From Candidatus Eremiobacter antarcticus (lineage in GTDB: Bacteria > Vulcanimicrobiota > Vulcanimicrobiia > Eremiobacterales > Eremiobacteraceae): DNA of 64,000 bases. A program made the translations under genes and the position numbers. Position 1 is the stretch's first letter. The number at the start of each line of letters is the position of its first letter. The stretch lies in the NCBI GenBank assembly GCA_003244105.1, contig QHBK01000014.1, forward strand, positions 1 to 64,000. Direction: 5' to 3'. Below the pieces are notes generated by a model that did no database searches, was not told the DNA's origin, and saw only the letters and a list, made by a program, of their open reading frames with translations. Shown in pieces: positions 14,899 to 21,690 of this stretch.

Positions 14899-14999
14899 CA
14901 CGTGGGCACAACCGGCGCGGGGTGATAGGCAGAGCGGGGAAACGTCGCGCGCCGCGCGCAGGGCAAGGGATTGACTTTCGGCCTTCCAAAACCCGATGC

Positions 15000-15587
15000 A
15001 TGACCGCCCGGCCGCGTCGCGATCCGGAACCGCCAAGCGAGGATCAAAGCGCTTTCCTGGAACACGCGATGGCAACGTACGGCAAACAGACGTACAACTA
15101 CGCGTACCGCCTCACCGGCAACGAGGCGGATGCCCGCGACCTCACGCAAGAAGCGTTTATCCGCGTCTTCCGCGCTTGGCGCTCCTTTCAACCAGGCACC
15201 TCGTTCTTGTCCTGGATCTATCGCATTGTCACGAACCTGCACCGGGACGAACTGCGCCGGCGCAAGGGTGTGTTCTTGCAAGAGCTCCCGGAGGATAACC
15301 AGCCTCAGGACCTGCCCGCGGATTCCTCGGCTCACGACCCGATCGCCGCCATCCACGACCGCCAACTGTCCTCGACGATGGAAGGGGCTCTCCGCCAACT
15401 CACGGCCGACCAGCGCGCCGTCGTCTTGCTCGCGGATCTTGAAGACCACTCCTATCAAGAAATAGCAGCCATCATGGCGTGTTCGATCGGAACCGTTCGC
15501 TCCCGCCTGCACAGGGCTCGCATGCAGTTGCGCAAGCTCGTGCCTCGCCTGCGGGAGCAGGAGCGCCGGCAGGGTTCTTCGTTGTGA
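15000..15587 (+). CDS. ECF-type RNA polymerase sigma factor (RpoE-like)
   Basis: About 195 residues. Region 2 is clear (YNYAYRLTGNEADARDLTQEAFIRVFRAW...FLSWIYRIVTN in separate motifs), as is region 4 (QLTADQRAVVLLADLEDHSYQEIAAI with a helix-turn-helix GTVRSRLHRARMQLRK). It directs RNA polymerase to stress promoters. The ATG at 15000 leaves a short pre-region-2 tail; an upstream start at 14922 is possible. It is followed by an anti-sigma factor and an RseB-like protein, forming a complete envelope-stress cassette. Confidence 0.92.
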   Translation: MTARPRRDPEPPSEDQSAFLEHAMATYGKQTYNYAYRLTGNEADARDLTQEAFIRVFRAWRSFQPGTSFLSWIYRIVTNLHRDELRRRKGVFLQELPEDNQPQDLPADSSAHDPIAAIHDRQLSSTMEGALRQLTADQRAVVLLADLEDHSYQEIAAIMACSIGTVRSRLHRARMQLRKLVPRLREQERRQGSSL

Positions 15588-15785
15588 GCCGAGGTAAGCA
15601 AGCGCGGGTGCCCCGCAGTCCATCAACCAAAGTGGGACGAACGGCACACTGTGTTCCGGCTGGACCCTGTGGAACGAAAGCGGCCTTCCACGGCGTTACC
15701 CCATCGAAGAAGATCAAGAACTTGACGCCGATCGCCTCAGTGCCGGGGTTGGTCTAGGCGTGTGCAAGAAAGAAACGGTAGAGAT
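15588..15785. other. Intergenic region between sigma and anti-sigma genes
   Basis: This is an unusually long gap (198 bp) for a sigma/anti-sigma pair. No open frame is convincing, and I see no terminator or clear promoter. It may hold a second promoter that lets the anti-sigma gene be expressed separately. Confidence 0.4.
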
Positions 15786-16274
15786 ATGAATTGCGAAAAC
15801 TGCCAAGCGTTGCTTACTGACTACGTCCATGGCGAAGTGGATGCAGCCAGCGACGCCGCCGTCTTCCAGCACCTGCACGGGTGTGCGACCTGCGAAAGCG
15901 CCTGGCAAGCCGAGCTCGCGCTGACGGAGTCCTTGCGGTCCGCCTTTGCCGTCGAGCGCGACTTTCCGACCTCGATTTTGGCGGGCGTGCGTCAGGCGGT
16001 CCGCGCCGAAAAGGCGCCCGGAGCCATGGCTGCCTTGCGCGCCCTGTTGCGCCCCGCCGTCCTTGCCCCCGCAGCGGCGCTCATCATCGCGGGAGCCGGG
16101 ATCGTTCATTATAATCAGGCGCACATAACCGCGACCTCGCCCCAGCTGTCGGCCGAGTATCTCGTCCGCCAGCACATCGTGCAAACCGGCGGCACGCAAG
16201 CCAGCGAGCGGGCCTGGAACGGTTACATGCTGACAACGGCCAACGCCAACGATACCAACCTTGGAAGCCCCTAG
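15786..16274 (+). CDS. Anti-sigma factor with zinc-finger (zf-HC2/ASD) domain
   Basis: About 162 residues. The N-terminus carries the zinc-binding arrangement HLHGCATC (His-X3-Cys-X2-Cys) of ZAS-type anti-sigma factors, preceded by CENCQALLTDYVHGE. A hydrophobic segment, PAAALIIAGAGIVHY, near residue 110 is a likely single membrane span, so the sensor tail would lie outside the membrane. It presumably sequesters the ECF sigma factor encoded upstream. Its end overlaps the next gene by 14 nt. Confidence 0.88.
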   Translation: MNCENCQALLTDYVHGEVDAASDAAVFQHLHGCATCESAWQAELALTESLRSAFAVERDFPTSILAGVRQAVRAEKAPGAMAALRALLRPAVLAPAAALIIAGAGIVHYNQAHITATSPQLSAEYLVRQHIVQTGGTQASERAWNGYMLTTANANDTNLGSP

Positions 16275-17301
16275 GTTTTCGCGCAACCCCATCGTCGGCG
16301 TCCTTGCGGCGATCCTTTTGCTGGGAGCGCCCGCTTCGGCGCCTGCAGCCGACGGGCGCGCCCTCTATCGGGCGGCCGTGGAAGCCGACGATATGGTGTC
16401 CTATTCGGGCACGCTGACGTCGGTCGTTTATGAAGGCGACCGGGCTGAATCCACGGTTGCGCGCATCGAACACAAGGCACCGCACTCCTGGCGCATCTGG
16501 TATCTCGCTCCCGCGGATGCCTACGGCCGCATGATCGTCAGCAACGAGCAGCTGACCTATCAATACGAGCCGGGTCGAAACCGGGTCTACAGCAACGACT
16601 GGAACACCACCGCTCCCGGCATTGCGGAGCCCGTCGACATCTCACGCGTCGAGAAGAACTACGCGGTCGATATCGGCCCGGTCGCTTCCATCGCGGGGCG
16701 CAACGCGCTCGCGCTGTCGCTGGTTTCGAAGCACCGGGGCACGCTCGCCGAACGCCTGTGGCTCGACAGCACGACAAAGCTGATCTTGCGCCGAGAGAAC
16801 TACCGGGCAGATGGAACGATCGCTTCAAAATCAGGCTTCGACAATATCAAGATCACGGCCGACTTCCCCCGCGAGCTCTTCGACCTGAGCGTTCCCGCGG
16901 GCATGACGCTGCTGCACGGCACGACGTACGGGAAGGCCACCAGGAACATCTCCGAGCTCATCTCGTCTTTGAAGTTCAAGTTTGCCGACCCCAAGTACAT
17001 CCCGGAAGGGTTCTCGCTCGTGAAGGGCAGCATCGCTTCTCCTCGAGGCATCGATACGCTGCAGCTCGTGTATGGCGACGGTCTCCAGACGTTTTCGCTG
17101 TTCGAGAACGGGACCGGCCAAATGCCTTCCTTCGACCGTGCCACACCGAAGCCGATCCAGATCGGATCGAGCGCCGGTCAATATGCGGATCTGGACGGGC
17201 AGACGTTGGTGTCGTGGAATGCGGGCGGAATCAATTTCACGATCGTGGGAAATCTGCCGACCAAGGAAGTGTCGAAGATCGGCGCCAGCATCGACCAGTA
17301 A
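16261..17301 (+). CDS. Exported RseB/LolA-fold sigma-factor regulatory protein
   Basis: 346 residues with a Sec signal peptide (cleavage near PASAPAA). The N-terminal 200 residues fit the MucB/RseB-LolA beta-sheet fold (YSGTLTSVVYEGDRAES, RIEHKAP, then a strand-rich core). The C-terminal third (DPKYIPEGFSLVKGS..., then SWNAGGINFTIVG) resembles a DUF4367-like module. RseB proteins bind mislocalised envelope components and protect the anti-sigma factor from proteolysis. It starts at a TTG overlapping the anti-sigma gene, so translation is coupled. Domain calls are from memory. Confidence 0.78.
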   Translation: MEAPRFSRNPIVGVLAAILLLGAPASAPAADGRALYRAAVEADDMVSYSGTLTSVVYEGDRAESTVARIEHKAPHSWRIWYLAPADAYGRMIVSNEQLTYQYEPGRNRVYSNDWNTTAPGIAEPVDISRVEKNYAVDIGPVASIAGRNALALSLVSKHRGTLAERLWLDSTTKLILRRENYRADGTIASKSGFDNIKITADFPRELFDLSVPAGMTLLHGTTYGKATRNISELISSLKFKFADPKYIPEGFSLVKGSIASPRGIDTLQLVYGDGLQTFSLFENGTGQMPSFDRATPKPIQIGSSAGQYADLDGQTLVSWNAGGINFTIVGNLPTKEVSKIGASIDQ

Positions 17302-17334: not shown

Positions 17335-18366
17335 TCAGTCAAGCCATGCGCGCGCTTTTTCCACCATGACGGCTAGCCTCGGATCTTGAGGAACAGCTTT
17401 CCGAGCGTATTCACCACCAGAAGGATTCCCCGCAAATGCGGACGCGAGCGTCGCGCCGCTTGCCTCAAGGTTCTCGAGCGAATACCCACCCTCCAGGACC
17501 AAGGCGAGCGCGCTCTCTTGCTCCGTCGCGACGGCGCTTAAGAGCGCGCACAGCTCATCGACGGCGCGCAGGTCCACGGGCAAGCCCGCTATGGGATCTC
17601 CGGTCAAGAAATCAAAACCGGCAGAGATGAGGATGACGCTTGGCTGTATCCTGCGCGCGGCAGCGGGTAGAAGTGTTGACCACACGGCAGTGAAATCGTC
17701 GGTCGCCGTCGAGTGCGCCAAGGGGATGTCGATCACGAAACCGTTGGCGGCCACCTTGCACTCCTGGAACGATCCGGTTCCGGGATAGGCCGGATAGGCG
17801 TGGGTCGAGATGAATCCAAGGCGCCCGCCGGATTCCTCGAGCGCTCGCTCTACCCAAGCCTGCGTTCCGTTGCCATGATGGTAGTCGAAGTCGACGATCA
17901 GGACGTTCCCGCGTTGCCGCCGCGCCCACTGCGCCGCGATGGCGACGTTATTGAAGACGCAAAAGCCCATGCCCCCTCCGGGCGTCGCGTGGTGGCCGGG
18001 CGGGCGCACGGCCGCCAAGACGGGGACGCCGGCAACAGCGCGCTTGACCGCGCCAAGCGCTGCCGCCGCGGCCTCTACCGCCGCATCGAAGGTACCCTTT
18101 GATACGACCGTGTCCCCGGTGGGCAGCTGCGCTAAGCCGTCCTCAGGCAGGGCCGAGCATAACCGCTCGACCACGGCGATGTACTCAAGCGGATGAACGG
18201 TTTCGAGAAAGCGCCGGTCCAAGCTTGGTGGACGCTCGAACGGCGATGCAACGCAGCCCGCGCTGTGCAAGCCGGCGATCAGCGCGTCGAGCCGCGCGCT
18301 GTTTTCCGGATGATGCGGCCCGGTGTGGTGCTCGCGGTGATGCGGATTGTAGAGGACTTCGAGAAT
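17335..18366 (-). CDS. Histone deacetylase / acetylpolyamine amidohydrolase family protein with an apparent AUU start
   Basis: About 343 residues if read from ATT at 18366. Zinc enzyme of the arginase-deacetylase fold: PPGHHATPGGGMGFCVFNN (His-His charge relay), VDFDYHHGNGTQ (Asp and His zinc ligands) and SAGFDFLTGDP (third ligand), then LEGGYS. It removes acetyl groups from lysine or polyamines. The conserved start of the family (LYNPHHREHHTGPHHPEN) is encoded before any ATG, GTG or TTG: the first such codon is the TTG at 18270, 34 codons after the upstream gene's TAG. Either ATT is used, or the TAG at 18373 is read through, or there is a sequence error. Confidence 0.85.
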   Translation of the reverse strand: MLEVLYNPHHREHHTGPHHPENSARLDALIAGLHSAGCVASPFERPPSLDRRFLETVHPLEYIAVVERLCSALPEDGLAQLPTGDTVVSKGTFDAAVEAAAAALGAVKRAVAGVPVLAAVRPPGHHATPGGGMGFCVFNNVAIAAQWARRQRGNVLIVDFDYHHGNGTQAWVERALEESGGRLGFISTHAYPAYPGTGSFQECKVAANGFVIDIPLAHSTATDDFTAVWSTLLPAAARRIQPSVILISAGFDFLTGDPIAGLPVDLRAVDELCALLSAVATEQESALALVLEGGYSLENLEASGATLASAFAGNPSGGEYARKAVPQDPRLAVMVEKARAWLD

Positions 18367-18372
18367 GTGACG

Positions 18373-19860
18373 CTACTGAGCGAACGCCTTGATGTAGGAG
18401 CGCGCTTTATTGGCGCCGTCTCCGCTGCTGACGTACGCCAGGTATTTCTTGTATGCAGTGGTCGCGGCTTTCTTGTCGCCCAAGTGCCGGTCGGTCTCAC
18501 CCAGGACAAACCACAGCTGGGGATCAGGACGTTCCTTCACTTGGTGAGCCGCCAGGGCATCGAAGATCTGGCGAGCCTGCTTATAATCCTTGAGATTGAA
18601 ATAGGCGAGGCCCAGATTGAAGAGGCCCGCGTAGGTGTGGGCGATCGAAAACGATCGGCGGTATTGGTCGCGCGCAAGCGTCCACCGGCCTTGGGCGGCG
18701 TAGGCCTGACCGAGCCACAGCAGCGCTTCTGCGTTCCCCGGTTGCGCATCGACGATTTTCGAGAACGCGCTTTGCGCTTTATACGCGCGCTTGAGCGTCA
18801 GCAGCTCCAGTCGTCCGTAGTCGAAGAGAAGGCTGAGATTGTTGGGAGCCAGGGCAAGCCCGGACTCGAATTCTTTCTCCGCTTGCGTGTAATTGCGCTG
18901 GCGCGCGTCATACTCAGCCTGCAGCGCGAACGGCTCGGCTGCCTTGGGATGGTCTTTGATCGCTTGCGCAAACGCTTGGCGCGCCTGATCGACCATGTTC
19001 TTCTCCAAGTAGAGCTGAGCGATGTCATCTTCGGCCTGGACGCTGTCCGGCTGCAGCTTGACGACTTGTTGGAGGACGGCAACCGCGCCCGCGACATCGT
19101 TCTTTTTGGAGAGCGCTTGCGCTTTGCCGGAAAGCGCATCGATGTTCTTCGGCTCGTCCGCGAGGATCTGGTTGAATTGTGCGAGCGCCTTGTCGGGATC
19201 CGGCGTCTTCTGACTGAGATAGGAGCGTCCGATCAACACCTTGGCTCGCGTGTCTTTCGGATCCAGCTCGAGCGCCTTTTGCAACGACTTGCGGCCGTCA
19301 TCGAACTTCGCCTGATTCAGCTGCACCATGCCGAGCGACTCGTACGCAAAAGAATCCTTGGGATGCAACTGCACGGCCCGGTTGGCGATGCGCGACGCGT
19401 CATCGACCCTGCCTAGCTGGAGCAGCGTGTCGACCAAGTTGGAAAGGACCGCCGGGTTGGCGGGGTCGCGCACTTCGGCGCGCTGGAAAGCGGAGAGGGC
19501 GTCTTCCGGATCTTGCAGCTCGCGGTCGGCTAGACCGATGTAGAACCACACCTGGGCGTCATCCATGCCGAGCCGCACAGCGGTCTCCAAGTGGTCGCGC
19601 CCGTCCGAGGCCTTGCCTGTTTGCACGAGCAGCACGCCGAGGTCGGCGTGCGCGTTCTTGTCGTTGGGGTTGTCTTTGACCGTCTGGGTCAACGTGGTGA
19701 TGCGCTCGGCCGGCGTTGGGGTGGGCGATTCGCTGGGCGATGGGCTTGGGGCCGGGCTCGATTTGGCGTGCGGCCGTGCCTGCACTCCCATAGGCGCCTG
19801 CGCTCCGACGATCGCGGCGATCAGCAAGCACAGCAGCGCAAGGTTCAAAAACCGGCCCAA
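18373..19860 (-). CDS. Exported tetratricopeptide-repeat protein
   Basis: 495 residues. It has a signal peptide (LALLCLLIAAIVGAQA), a Pro/Ser linker, and then at least ten TPR-like helical pairs spanning nearly the whole protein (for example NAHADLGVLLVQTGK, AFQRAEVRDPANPAVLSNL, SLQKALELDPKDTRAKVLIG). It is a likely protein-protein scaffold outside the cytoplasm; the partner is unknown. The TTG at 19860 has GGGAG about 5 nt upstream. It ends with a single TAG followed, in the same frame, by the deacetylase-like gene. Confidence 0.85.
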   Translation of the reverse strand: MGRFLNLALLCLLIAAIVGAQAPMGVQARPHAKSSPAPSPSPSESPTPTPAERITTLTQTVKDNPNDKNAHADLGVLLVQTGKASDGRDHLETAVRLGMDDAQVWFYIGLADRELQDPEDALSAFQRAEVRDPANPAVLSNLVDTLLQLGRVDDASRIANRAVQLHPKDSFAYESLGMVQLNQAKFDDGRKSLQKALELDPKDTRAKVLIGRSYLSQKTPDPDKALAQFNQILADEPKNIDALSGKAQALSKKNDVAGAVAVLQQVVKLQPDSVQAEDDIAQLYLEKNMVDQARQAFAQAIKDHPKAAEPFALQAEYDARQRNYTQAEKEFESGLALAPNNLSLLFDYGRLELLTLKRAYKAQSAFSKIVDAQPGNAEALLWLGQAYAAQGRWTLARDQYRRSFSIAHTYAGLFNLGLAYFNLKDYKQARQIFDALAAHQVKERPDPQLWFVLGETDRHLGDKKAATTAYKKYLAYVSSGDGANKARSYIKAFAQ

Positions 19861-19916: not shown

Positions 19917-20894
19917 TCAGGCGGCGCTTTTGCGTTCCTTGACGAGTTTCGTCAACTCGGGCAAGATCGCGAAAAGATCGCCCACCACCCCGAAATCGCA
20001 GAACTCAAAAATCGGCGCATTGCCATCCTTATTGATGGCGACGATAATGCCTGCACTGCGCATGCCTACCTTATGTTGGATGGCGCCGGAGATGCCGCAA
20101 GCGATATACAATTGCGGGCTCACGCTCTTACCCGTCTGGCCGACCTGATGCGCGTGCGGAATCCAGCCGGCATCCACCGCCGCTCTGGACGCACCAACGG
20201 CGCCGCCCAACGCATCCGCCAACGCTTCCACGATATCGAAGTGCTCGGGGCTGCCCAAGCCACGCCCGCCCGAAACGATGATGCCCGCTTCTTCGACGGA
20301 GATGTTGCCGGCGGCCTGGACGACAGTCTCTTCGATCTTGGCGGGGTGCGGCTTCTCGACGGCCGGCAGCGCTACGACTTCGCCCTTGCCGGCCTGAGCC
20401 CGGGCGGCGAAGCTGTTGGCCCGGCAGACGACGATTGCATACTCCGAATTCTTGAAGCCGACGGCGCTCAGCGTCGATCCGCCGAACTTCGGCGACACGA
20501 CGGAGATGGAGCCGTCCTTGACGGTGATGTCGCTGGCTTCGGTGATGACGCCGGCGCTAAGCCTCACGCCAAGGCGGGCCGCGATGTCCTTGCCAAAATT
20601 GCTCGCCGGAACGAGCAGCAAGGCGGAGCCGACTTGGCGCAAGAGCGCTTCCAACGCATCGACGGCCGGATCGACGAGGTATTCCTCGATCTTCATGTCC
20701 TCGCCGGTGTAGATGGTGTCGACAGGAGTCGCGCGCAGCTGCTCGGCCGCGTCCTGGGCTCCGCGGCCTAAGACGACAGCACCCGAGGGAACGCCCAGCG
20801 CGCTTGCAAGCTCCGACGCCTTCGACGCCATCTCGGAACCTATCCGGCGCACGCGGCCCTCCGACTGCTCGGCGAGGGCAAGCACAACTTTCAC
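19917..20894 (-). CDS. etfA: Electron transfer flavoprotein alpha subunit
   Basis: 325 residues. The C-terminal FAD domain is typical: [32 protein letters not shown] and [12 protein letters not shown]. With EtfB it accepts electrons from acyl-CoA or other dehydrogenases and passes them to the quinone pool. It starts with GTG and lies 4 nt after etfB. No partner dehydrogenase or ETF-quinone oxidoreductase lies in the window. Confidence 0.96.
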
Positions 20895-20898
20895 GAGC

Positions 20899-21690
20899 TC
20901 AGACGACCTTCTTGGCGATAAGAAATTCCAATATTTGCTTGGCGCCTTCCACCGGATCTTGCGCCTGGATCACCGTCCCTTTGCCACGAGCGCTGACAGG
21001 AGTGAATGACTCCACCCACGTCTTGCTTCCAGCGTCTCCGAACCGAGCGGCATCTGCGCCGATGTCGGCGAGGCTCAACGCCTTGATCTCCTTTTTCTTC
21101 GCGCCCATGATGCCTTTGAGCGTGGGATAACGCGGCTCATTGATGCTCTTTGTCACCGATATCAATGCGGGCAGCGGCGCGCTCACCCGTTGATAGCCGG
21201 CGTCCGTCTCGCGCTGGATTTCGACGCGGCCGTCGGCGATTGTCACCTTCTTCGCATAGGTCAAGGCGGGGATGCCCAAGTGCTCGGCGACAGCGGCCGG
21301 CACGATGCTGTTGATCGCATCGGTGCTTTGCGTTCCGGTGAGGATGAGATCGAAGCCGATGTGCTTCAATGCCTGTGAAATCAGATACGCGGTCGCCATG
21401 GTATCGCTTCCGCCGATCGCCTCATCCGAGAGCATCGCCGCGTTGTCGGCGCCCATCCCGAGCGCCTTGCGGACGATGTCGACGCCTTTTTGCGGCGCCA
21501 TCGTGAGGATGGTGACGGTGCTGTCGGCGCCCGCCGCCTCTTTGATGCGCAGCGCTTCTTCGATGGCGTATTCATCGAAGGGGTTGAGGACGTTCTCGAT
21601 TGCGCTGCGGTTCAAGCGCTTGGTGGCCGGGTCGAACGCCTTTTCCGCGTTGGTATCGGGAACTTGCTTCACGGTCACGACGATCTTCAC
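20899..21690 (-). CDS. etfB: Electron transfer flavoprotein beta subunit
   Basis: 263 residues. KIVVTVKQVPDT opens the protein, NPFDEYAIEEALRIKE follows at about 40, and the AMP-binding signature region is LTGTQSTDAINSIVPAAVAEHLGIP. It forms the heterodimer with EtfA encoded just downstream. The GTG start at 21690 faces the threonine dehydratase gene, leaving a 90-bp divergent promoter region. Confidence 0.96.
   Translation of the reverse strand: MKIVVTVKQVPDTNAEKAFDPATKRLNRSAIENVLNPFDEYAIEEALRIKEAAGADSTVTILTMAPQKGVDIVRKALGMGADNAAMLSDEAIGGSDTMATAYLISQALKHIGFDLILTGTQSTDAINSIVPAAVAEHLGIPALTYAKKVTIADGRVEIQRETDAGYQRVSAPLPALISVTKSINEPRYPTLKGIMGAKKKEIKALSLADIGADAARFGDAGSKTWVESFTPVSARGKGTVIQAQDPVEGAKQILEFLIAKKVV

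Follow-up and report, generated by a model that had tools for sequence, protein, structure and literature searches.

A deacetylase gene of Candidatus Eremiobacter antarcticus that very probably starts at ATT, and the recurrence of non-canonical starts at the same stop/start junction across its class

We conclude that the deacetylase gene on the minus strand of the window (the whole stretch of 64,000 nucleotides of contig QHBK01000014.1 analysed here, from an uncultured member of Candidatus Eremiobacterota) very probably starts at the ATT at positions 18366-18364. In our preferred account, to which we give a probability of about 0.72, this ATT is a start coupled by reinitiation to the TPR gene upstream and is one case of a habit found throughout the class Eremiobacteria. 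Read at the level of sequence, comparison of homologous loci shows the position of the start, the recurrence of non-canonical codons there, and the association of these codons with the stop/start junction. The initial annotation of this DNA was concerned with the single locus; that the unusual start appears to recur across the class, tied to the junction, goes beyond that view.

Read along the minus strand, the TPR gene closes with the codons GCG TTC GCT CAG TAG, followed by CGT CAC and then by ATT CTC GAA GTC CTC TAC AAT CCG, which leads into CAT CAC CGC GAG CAC CAC. No ATG, GTG, or TTG occurs in the deacetylase frame after the TAG before the TTG at 18270-18268, and the frame is open as far as the TGA at 17337-17335. 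The sequence confirms the observation in the initial annotation of a deacetylase-like gene in frame behind a single TAG, with no AUG, GUG, or UUG before its conserved N-terminus. The locus is present in a single copy (genome of 2.64 Mb in 19 contigs), and by inspection of the 39 window genes with same-family homologues, the deacetylase alone has no canonical codon that could serve as the start of its conserved N-terminus. The features are as follows.

18373 to 19860, minus strand: TPR gene, upstream member of the pair (open reading frame of 495 amino acids with an annotated TTG start; TPR families matched in Pfam; precedes the deacetylase in nearly all class homologues).
18373 to 18375, minus strand: TAG stop of the TPR gene, read from the sequence.
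18367 to 18372, minus strand: spacer CGTCAC of 6 nt between stop and start, with no Shine-Dalgarno (SD) sequence (anti-SD duplex energy, -0.2 kcal/mol).
18364 to 18366, minus strand: ATT, proposed start codon of the deacetylase; every one of the 102 homologues has ATG or a near-cognate of it in the aligned column.
17335 to 18366, minus strand: deacetylase coding sequence from ATT to TGA, 343 codons plus stop (PF00850; structural homologues).
18301 to 18354, minus strand: conserved N-terminal motif LYNPHHREHHTGPHHPEN, lying before the first in-frame TTG.
18268 to 18270, minus strand: TTG, the first in-frame canonical codon, too far downstream for the true start (the Pfam domain begins earlier).

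The TPR gene is immediately preceded, on its own strand, by the electron transfer flavoprotein genes etfB and etfA (19917-21690, minus strand), and the deacetylase may therefore end an etfBA-TPR-deacetylase operon. Converging on it are sigma-factor-like, anti-sigma-like, and MucB/RseB-like genes (14952-17301, plus strand), homologues of which share contigs with the deacetylase in several same-family genomes.

The protein itself argues for a start well before the TTG. Its Hist_deacetyl match (PF00850, 225.5 bits) spans profile positions 1 to 292 of 298 and places it in the family by profile. Numbered from the ATT, the PF00850 alignment begins at residue 19, so initiation at the TTG would remove part of the domain. 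Structural homologues include HDAC6 and a bacterial lysine deacylase (5zmp), the latter aligned from residue 2; from these two alignments we take the region upstream of the TTG to be part of the protein. Putative catalytic motifs (RPPGHHA, DYHHGNGT, GFD, and GGYS) were seen by eye. A genome search also returned a deacetylase match (G044:C62:32599-33510) with one TAG stop counted inside the open stretch.

Further evidence on the start codon comes from the class. Of 117 class genomes, 107 yielded deacetylase homologues, and the sequence across the start was read in 102 of them. The start column was set by distance from the H-P-E motif (18 codons upstream in most same-family members, 17 in the rest) and by eye for two loci (L003, at 19 codons, and L018). 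The codons in this column were GTG (32), ATG (27), CTG (22), TTG (14), ACG (3), ATT (2), and ATC (2), so that all 102 are ATG or differ from it by one base, a figure slightly flattered by the placement of the column by inspection. The corresponding share in the six upstream columns is only 3 to 12%, and it is on this difference that we judge the ATT to be very probably a start codon. A conserved leucine would not give the bias observed, as CTC is absent from the column against 22 cases of CTG, whereas farther downstream in the same genes CTC outnumbers CTG by 109 to 63. The AUU start that the initial annotation had offered as one possible reading is thus supported by 102 near-cognate homologues, 29 of them non-canonical.

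The initial annotation had also raised a sequence error, and had reasoned that an ordinary ATG at this position in related genomes would point to an error or a point change. The T of the ATT does rest on one assembly of one genome, and the true codon could have been ATG or another canonical codon, or the gene could be freshly impaired; ATG was found at or beside the column in just 5 of the 11 other readable same-family genomes. Members of the family carry GTG, ATC, ACG, and ATG in the column; the non-canonical ones are independent genomes with ATC, ATC, and ACG, which makes an error needless as an explanation of the ATT, and further independent genomes in the rest of the class carry CTG, ACG, and ATT. 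The reading frame and motifs of the deacetylase are intact. We consider a mutation or a sequencing or assembly error improbable; error could account at most for this single base of the window and not for the class pattern.

Non-canonical codons occupy the start column in 29 of the 102 species (28%), and 22 of these 29 loci lack any canonical codon from the upstream in-frame stop down to the conserved core. The window's gene shows both traits of a non-canonical start, namely no canonical codon before the conserved N-terminus and a near-cognate at the aligned start. Species with such starts occur in 11 of 43 genera. On a protein tree from which the start codon was left out (a quick tree with SH-aLRT support only), the canonical or non-canonical state changed at least nine times, seven of these changes being forced by well-supported branches, and the start codon itself changed 33 times, with ATG, GTG, and TTG also interchanging freely. 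CTG was kept in all 15 readable species of one genus (g12).

Outside the phylum, a canonical start lies near the site in 58 of 61 homologues, so that non-canonical starts number 3 of 61 there against 29 of 102 in the class (p = 1.7e-4). Candidate starts of CTG and ACG were seen in two homologues with no canonical start near the conserved N-terminus, from Pirellulales (L229) and Verrucomicrobia (L256). Of the 12 homologues from elsewhere in the phylum, 11 have a canonical start codon close to the site; the exception, from another class (L291, G147:C140), has a CTG one base past a TAG, with an AGGAGA site upstream.

The unusual starts are concentrated where the deacetylase meets the TPR gene, which lies upstream of it in nearly all class loci. 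Stop and start are separated by -4 to +15 nt in 69 of 102 loci (+6 in the window), and the deacetylase overlaps its neighbour by 4 or 1 nt in 25. Overlapping or closely spaced stop and start codons together with a conserved gene order are the anatomy of a coupled pair. All but one of the 29 non-canonical starts fall within -4 to +15 nt of the TPR stop, and 20 overlap it (CTGA, TAACG, or TAATT). By type, these junctions comprise CTGA overlaps (16), CTG at 0 to +4 (4), CTG at +14 or +15 (2), TAACG (3), TAATT (1), the ATT of the window at +6, and one ATC at +12. The remaining start, the ATC of L010, has a good SD sequence (GGAGG) and no adjacent upstream stop, which indicates that coupling is not universal. 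Of the 25 overlapping junctions, 20 have a non-canonical start, as compared with 9 of the 77 others (Fisher p = 3.6e-10), a test that ignores relatedness and overstates independence, as genus g12 contributes 15 of the 22 CTG cases.

These junctions also bear on the suggestion in the initial annotation that programmed readthrough of the TAG yields an exported TPR-deacetylase fusion. In the window, the two genes do share a frame with a single TAG between them. Across the class, however, the two genes share a frame at only 24 of 96 junctions, about the chance expectation; the upstream stop varies among TAG, TAA, and TGA; the overlaps of 4 or 1 nt are common; and the start column is under start-codon constraint. 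Conserved readthrough is refuted by the failure of relatives to keep an in-frame stop and extension, and we regard programmed readthrough as very improbable for the window as well.

From the anatomy of the junction we infer coupling by termination and reinitiation. A ribosome terminating at the TPR TAG would stay on the mRNA and reinitiate, with no SD sequence, at the near-cognate codon 6 nt downstream, where the ATT would be decoded by the initiator tRNA as the start of the deacetylase. So weak a start would keep deacetylase output low and dependent on translation of the TPR gene, and would make it responsive to initiation factor IF3, which would restrain it further. Across the class, the gene has shifted repeatedly between ATG, GTG, or TTG and CTG, ATT, ATC, or ACG at this one junction.

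Coupling could instead act through RNA unfolding, a recognised model (PMC12548453) in which translation of the TPR gene would open a structure hiding the start and new 30S subunits would initiate de novo at the near-cognate. SD-like sites in some relatives (L007, L010, and L013) would suit this model; none lies upstream of the window's ATT, and the predicted structure is weaker around non-canonical than canonical starts (mean 60-nt energies of -13.6 versus -16.7 kcal/mol), the reverse of the extra local structure looked for. We think unfolding unlikely. Against our own account, SD strength did not differ between canonical and non-canonical loci. Reinitiation with IF3 as a limit is favored because IF3 represses non-canonical codons and lowers reinitiation, and because infC starts with ATT in this genome. 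IF3 is known to repress non-canonical starts, with infC and the Streptomyces sigR gene (GTC) controlled in this way (PMC5472188), and extra IF3 reduces reinitiation in an Escherichia coli coupled reporter, more strongly without an SD sequence (PMC2268962). That IF3 controls the deacetylase, and that the cell makes physiological use of such control, are weaker suggestions drawn by analogy with these systems.

IF3 is present in the window's genome. The infC start varies by family within the class (ATT in f1, ATA in most of f2, and ATC in f3). To estimate a background rate of near-cognate starts, we used 400 kb from each of two g12 genomes together with about 386 kb from five same-family genomes. 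For the two g12 genomes (G021 and G026), 199 ortholog pairs were screened (L139-L178). The first screen was too lax, as shadow frames of upstream genes align; a codon-position score improved it but left many internal ATC and CTG columns, and the screen retained a case only where the partner's aligned column held a canonical codon or where neither open reading frame had one. Five further genes emerged, their names assigned by eye: a PASTA-like membrane protein (CTGA in both genomes), a glycosyltransferase (CTGA versus ATGA), a YdjC-like protein (CTGA versus GTG), a biotin-carboxylase gene (TAA-C-ATT versus ATG), and a Ppx-like protein (CTG versus ATG). For four of these genes, in one genome or both, the start overlaps or adjoins an upstream stop. 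With the deacetylase included, this rough screen gives about 4 non-canonical starts in 199 genes per genome (~2%); at junctions with a -4 overlap in both genomes, CTG starts number 2 of 37 per genome. The lineage thus appears, on sequence evidence, to use near-cognate starts generally at a low rate, with the deacetylase as an extreme case far above this background.

Whether the codon matters to the organism is a separate issue. The start and its coupling may be as we propose while the codon itself is tolerated rather than selected, drifting among near-cognates without regulatory meaning, since coupling would deliver ribosomes to the site and render mutations of the start codon and shifts of the upstream stop nearly harmless. 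The free variation among ATG, GTG, and TTG (within the 33 changes on the tree) and the low rate of CTG and ATT starts in unrelated genes of one genus agree with such drift; the retention of CTG throughout the readable g12 species hints at conservation, and the excess of the deacetylase over the ~2% background also speaks against drift. We give this neutral relaxation slightly less than even odds. It differs from our preferred account only in purpose, and the confidence placed in one does not exclude the other. A selected, class-wide form of control is a more doubtful proposition: near-cognates at coupled junctions (CTGA, TAACG, TAATT, and TAG-N6-ATT) would tie the deacetylase and a minority of other genes to reinitiation and to the level of IF3; CTG would function as a fourth start codon, and ATT, ATC, and ACG as reinitiation-type starts.

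The deacetylase overlaps only partially with systems already described. Like infC, with its AUU or AUC start and autoregulation by IF3, it has a near-cognate ATT identified by comparison; the infC product, however, is itself the factor that discriminates, in a feedback loop, whereas the deacetylase is not known to be connected with initiation, lacks an SD sequence in the window, and has a codon that varies between species. The GTC start of Streptomyces sigR also extends across a species group, is misannotated by gene finders, and limits one product, but it is nearly fixed (GTC in 32 of 34 species) behind a strong conserved ribosome binding site, AGGAGGTG (PMC5472188); the deacetylase start lies at a stop/start junction, often with no SD sequence, and changes repeatedly. 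Coupling by reinitiation at NTGA and TAATG involves a start that overlaps the stop or lies a few nucleotides from it, -4 and -1 being the commonest spacings (PMC6728339, PMC12548453); it has been described with ATG and other canonical starts, in contrast to the CTG, ACG, and ATT at 20 of 25 overlapping junctions here. In Listeria, ATA and ATT mutants of the rsbW start, in a gene that overlaps its upstream neighbour, work at lower expression (ATG > ATA > ATT), but rare non-canonical or flexible starts affect <0.3% of core genes, against 28% of class species for the deacetylase (PMC13068326).

Non-canonical starts, NTGA coupling, and the enzyme family are thus already known. In the literature searched, we found no single gene with recurrent CTG, ATT, ATC, and ACG starts across a class at a stop/start junction, nor any relevant paper on start codons in Eremiobacterota. 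A Deinococcus deserti proteogenomics paper is reportedly often cited for ATC and CTG starts.

Given irregular starts (CTG, ATC, and ACG) across the class, standard gene finders, which presume ATG, GTG, or TTG, would clip or misplace the front end of this enzyme in over a quarter of the species, and the same presumption would affect ~2% of genes in one genus. Many of the 102 natural junctions are distinguished chiefly by their start codon and by the distance from stop to start; together the junctions offer a test series that could reveal whether reinitiating ribosomes read starts less strictly than those initiating de novo, a point that bears on the open question of 30S versus 70S scanning (PMC12548453). 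Little-studied phyla may use non-canonical starts more often than model bacteria do.
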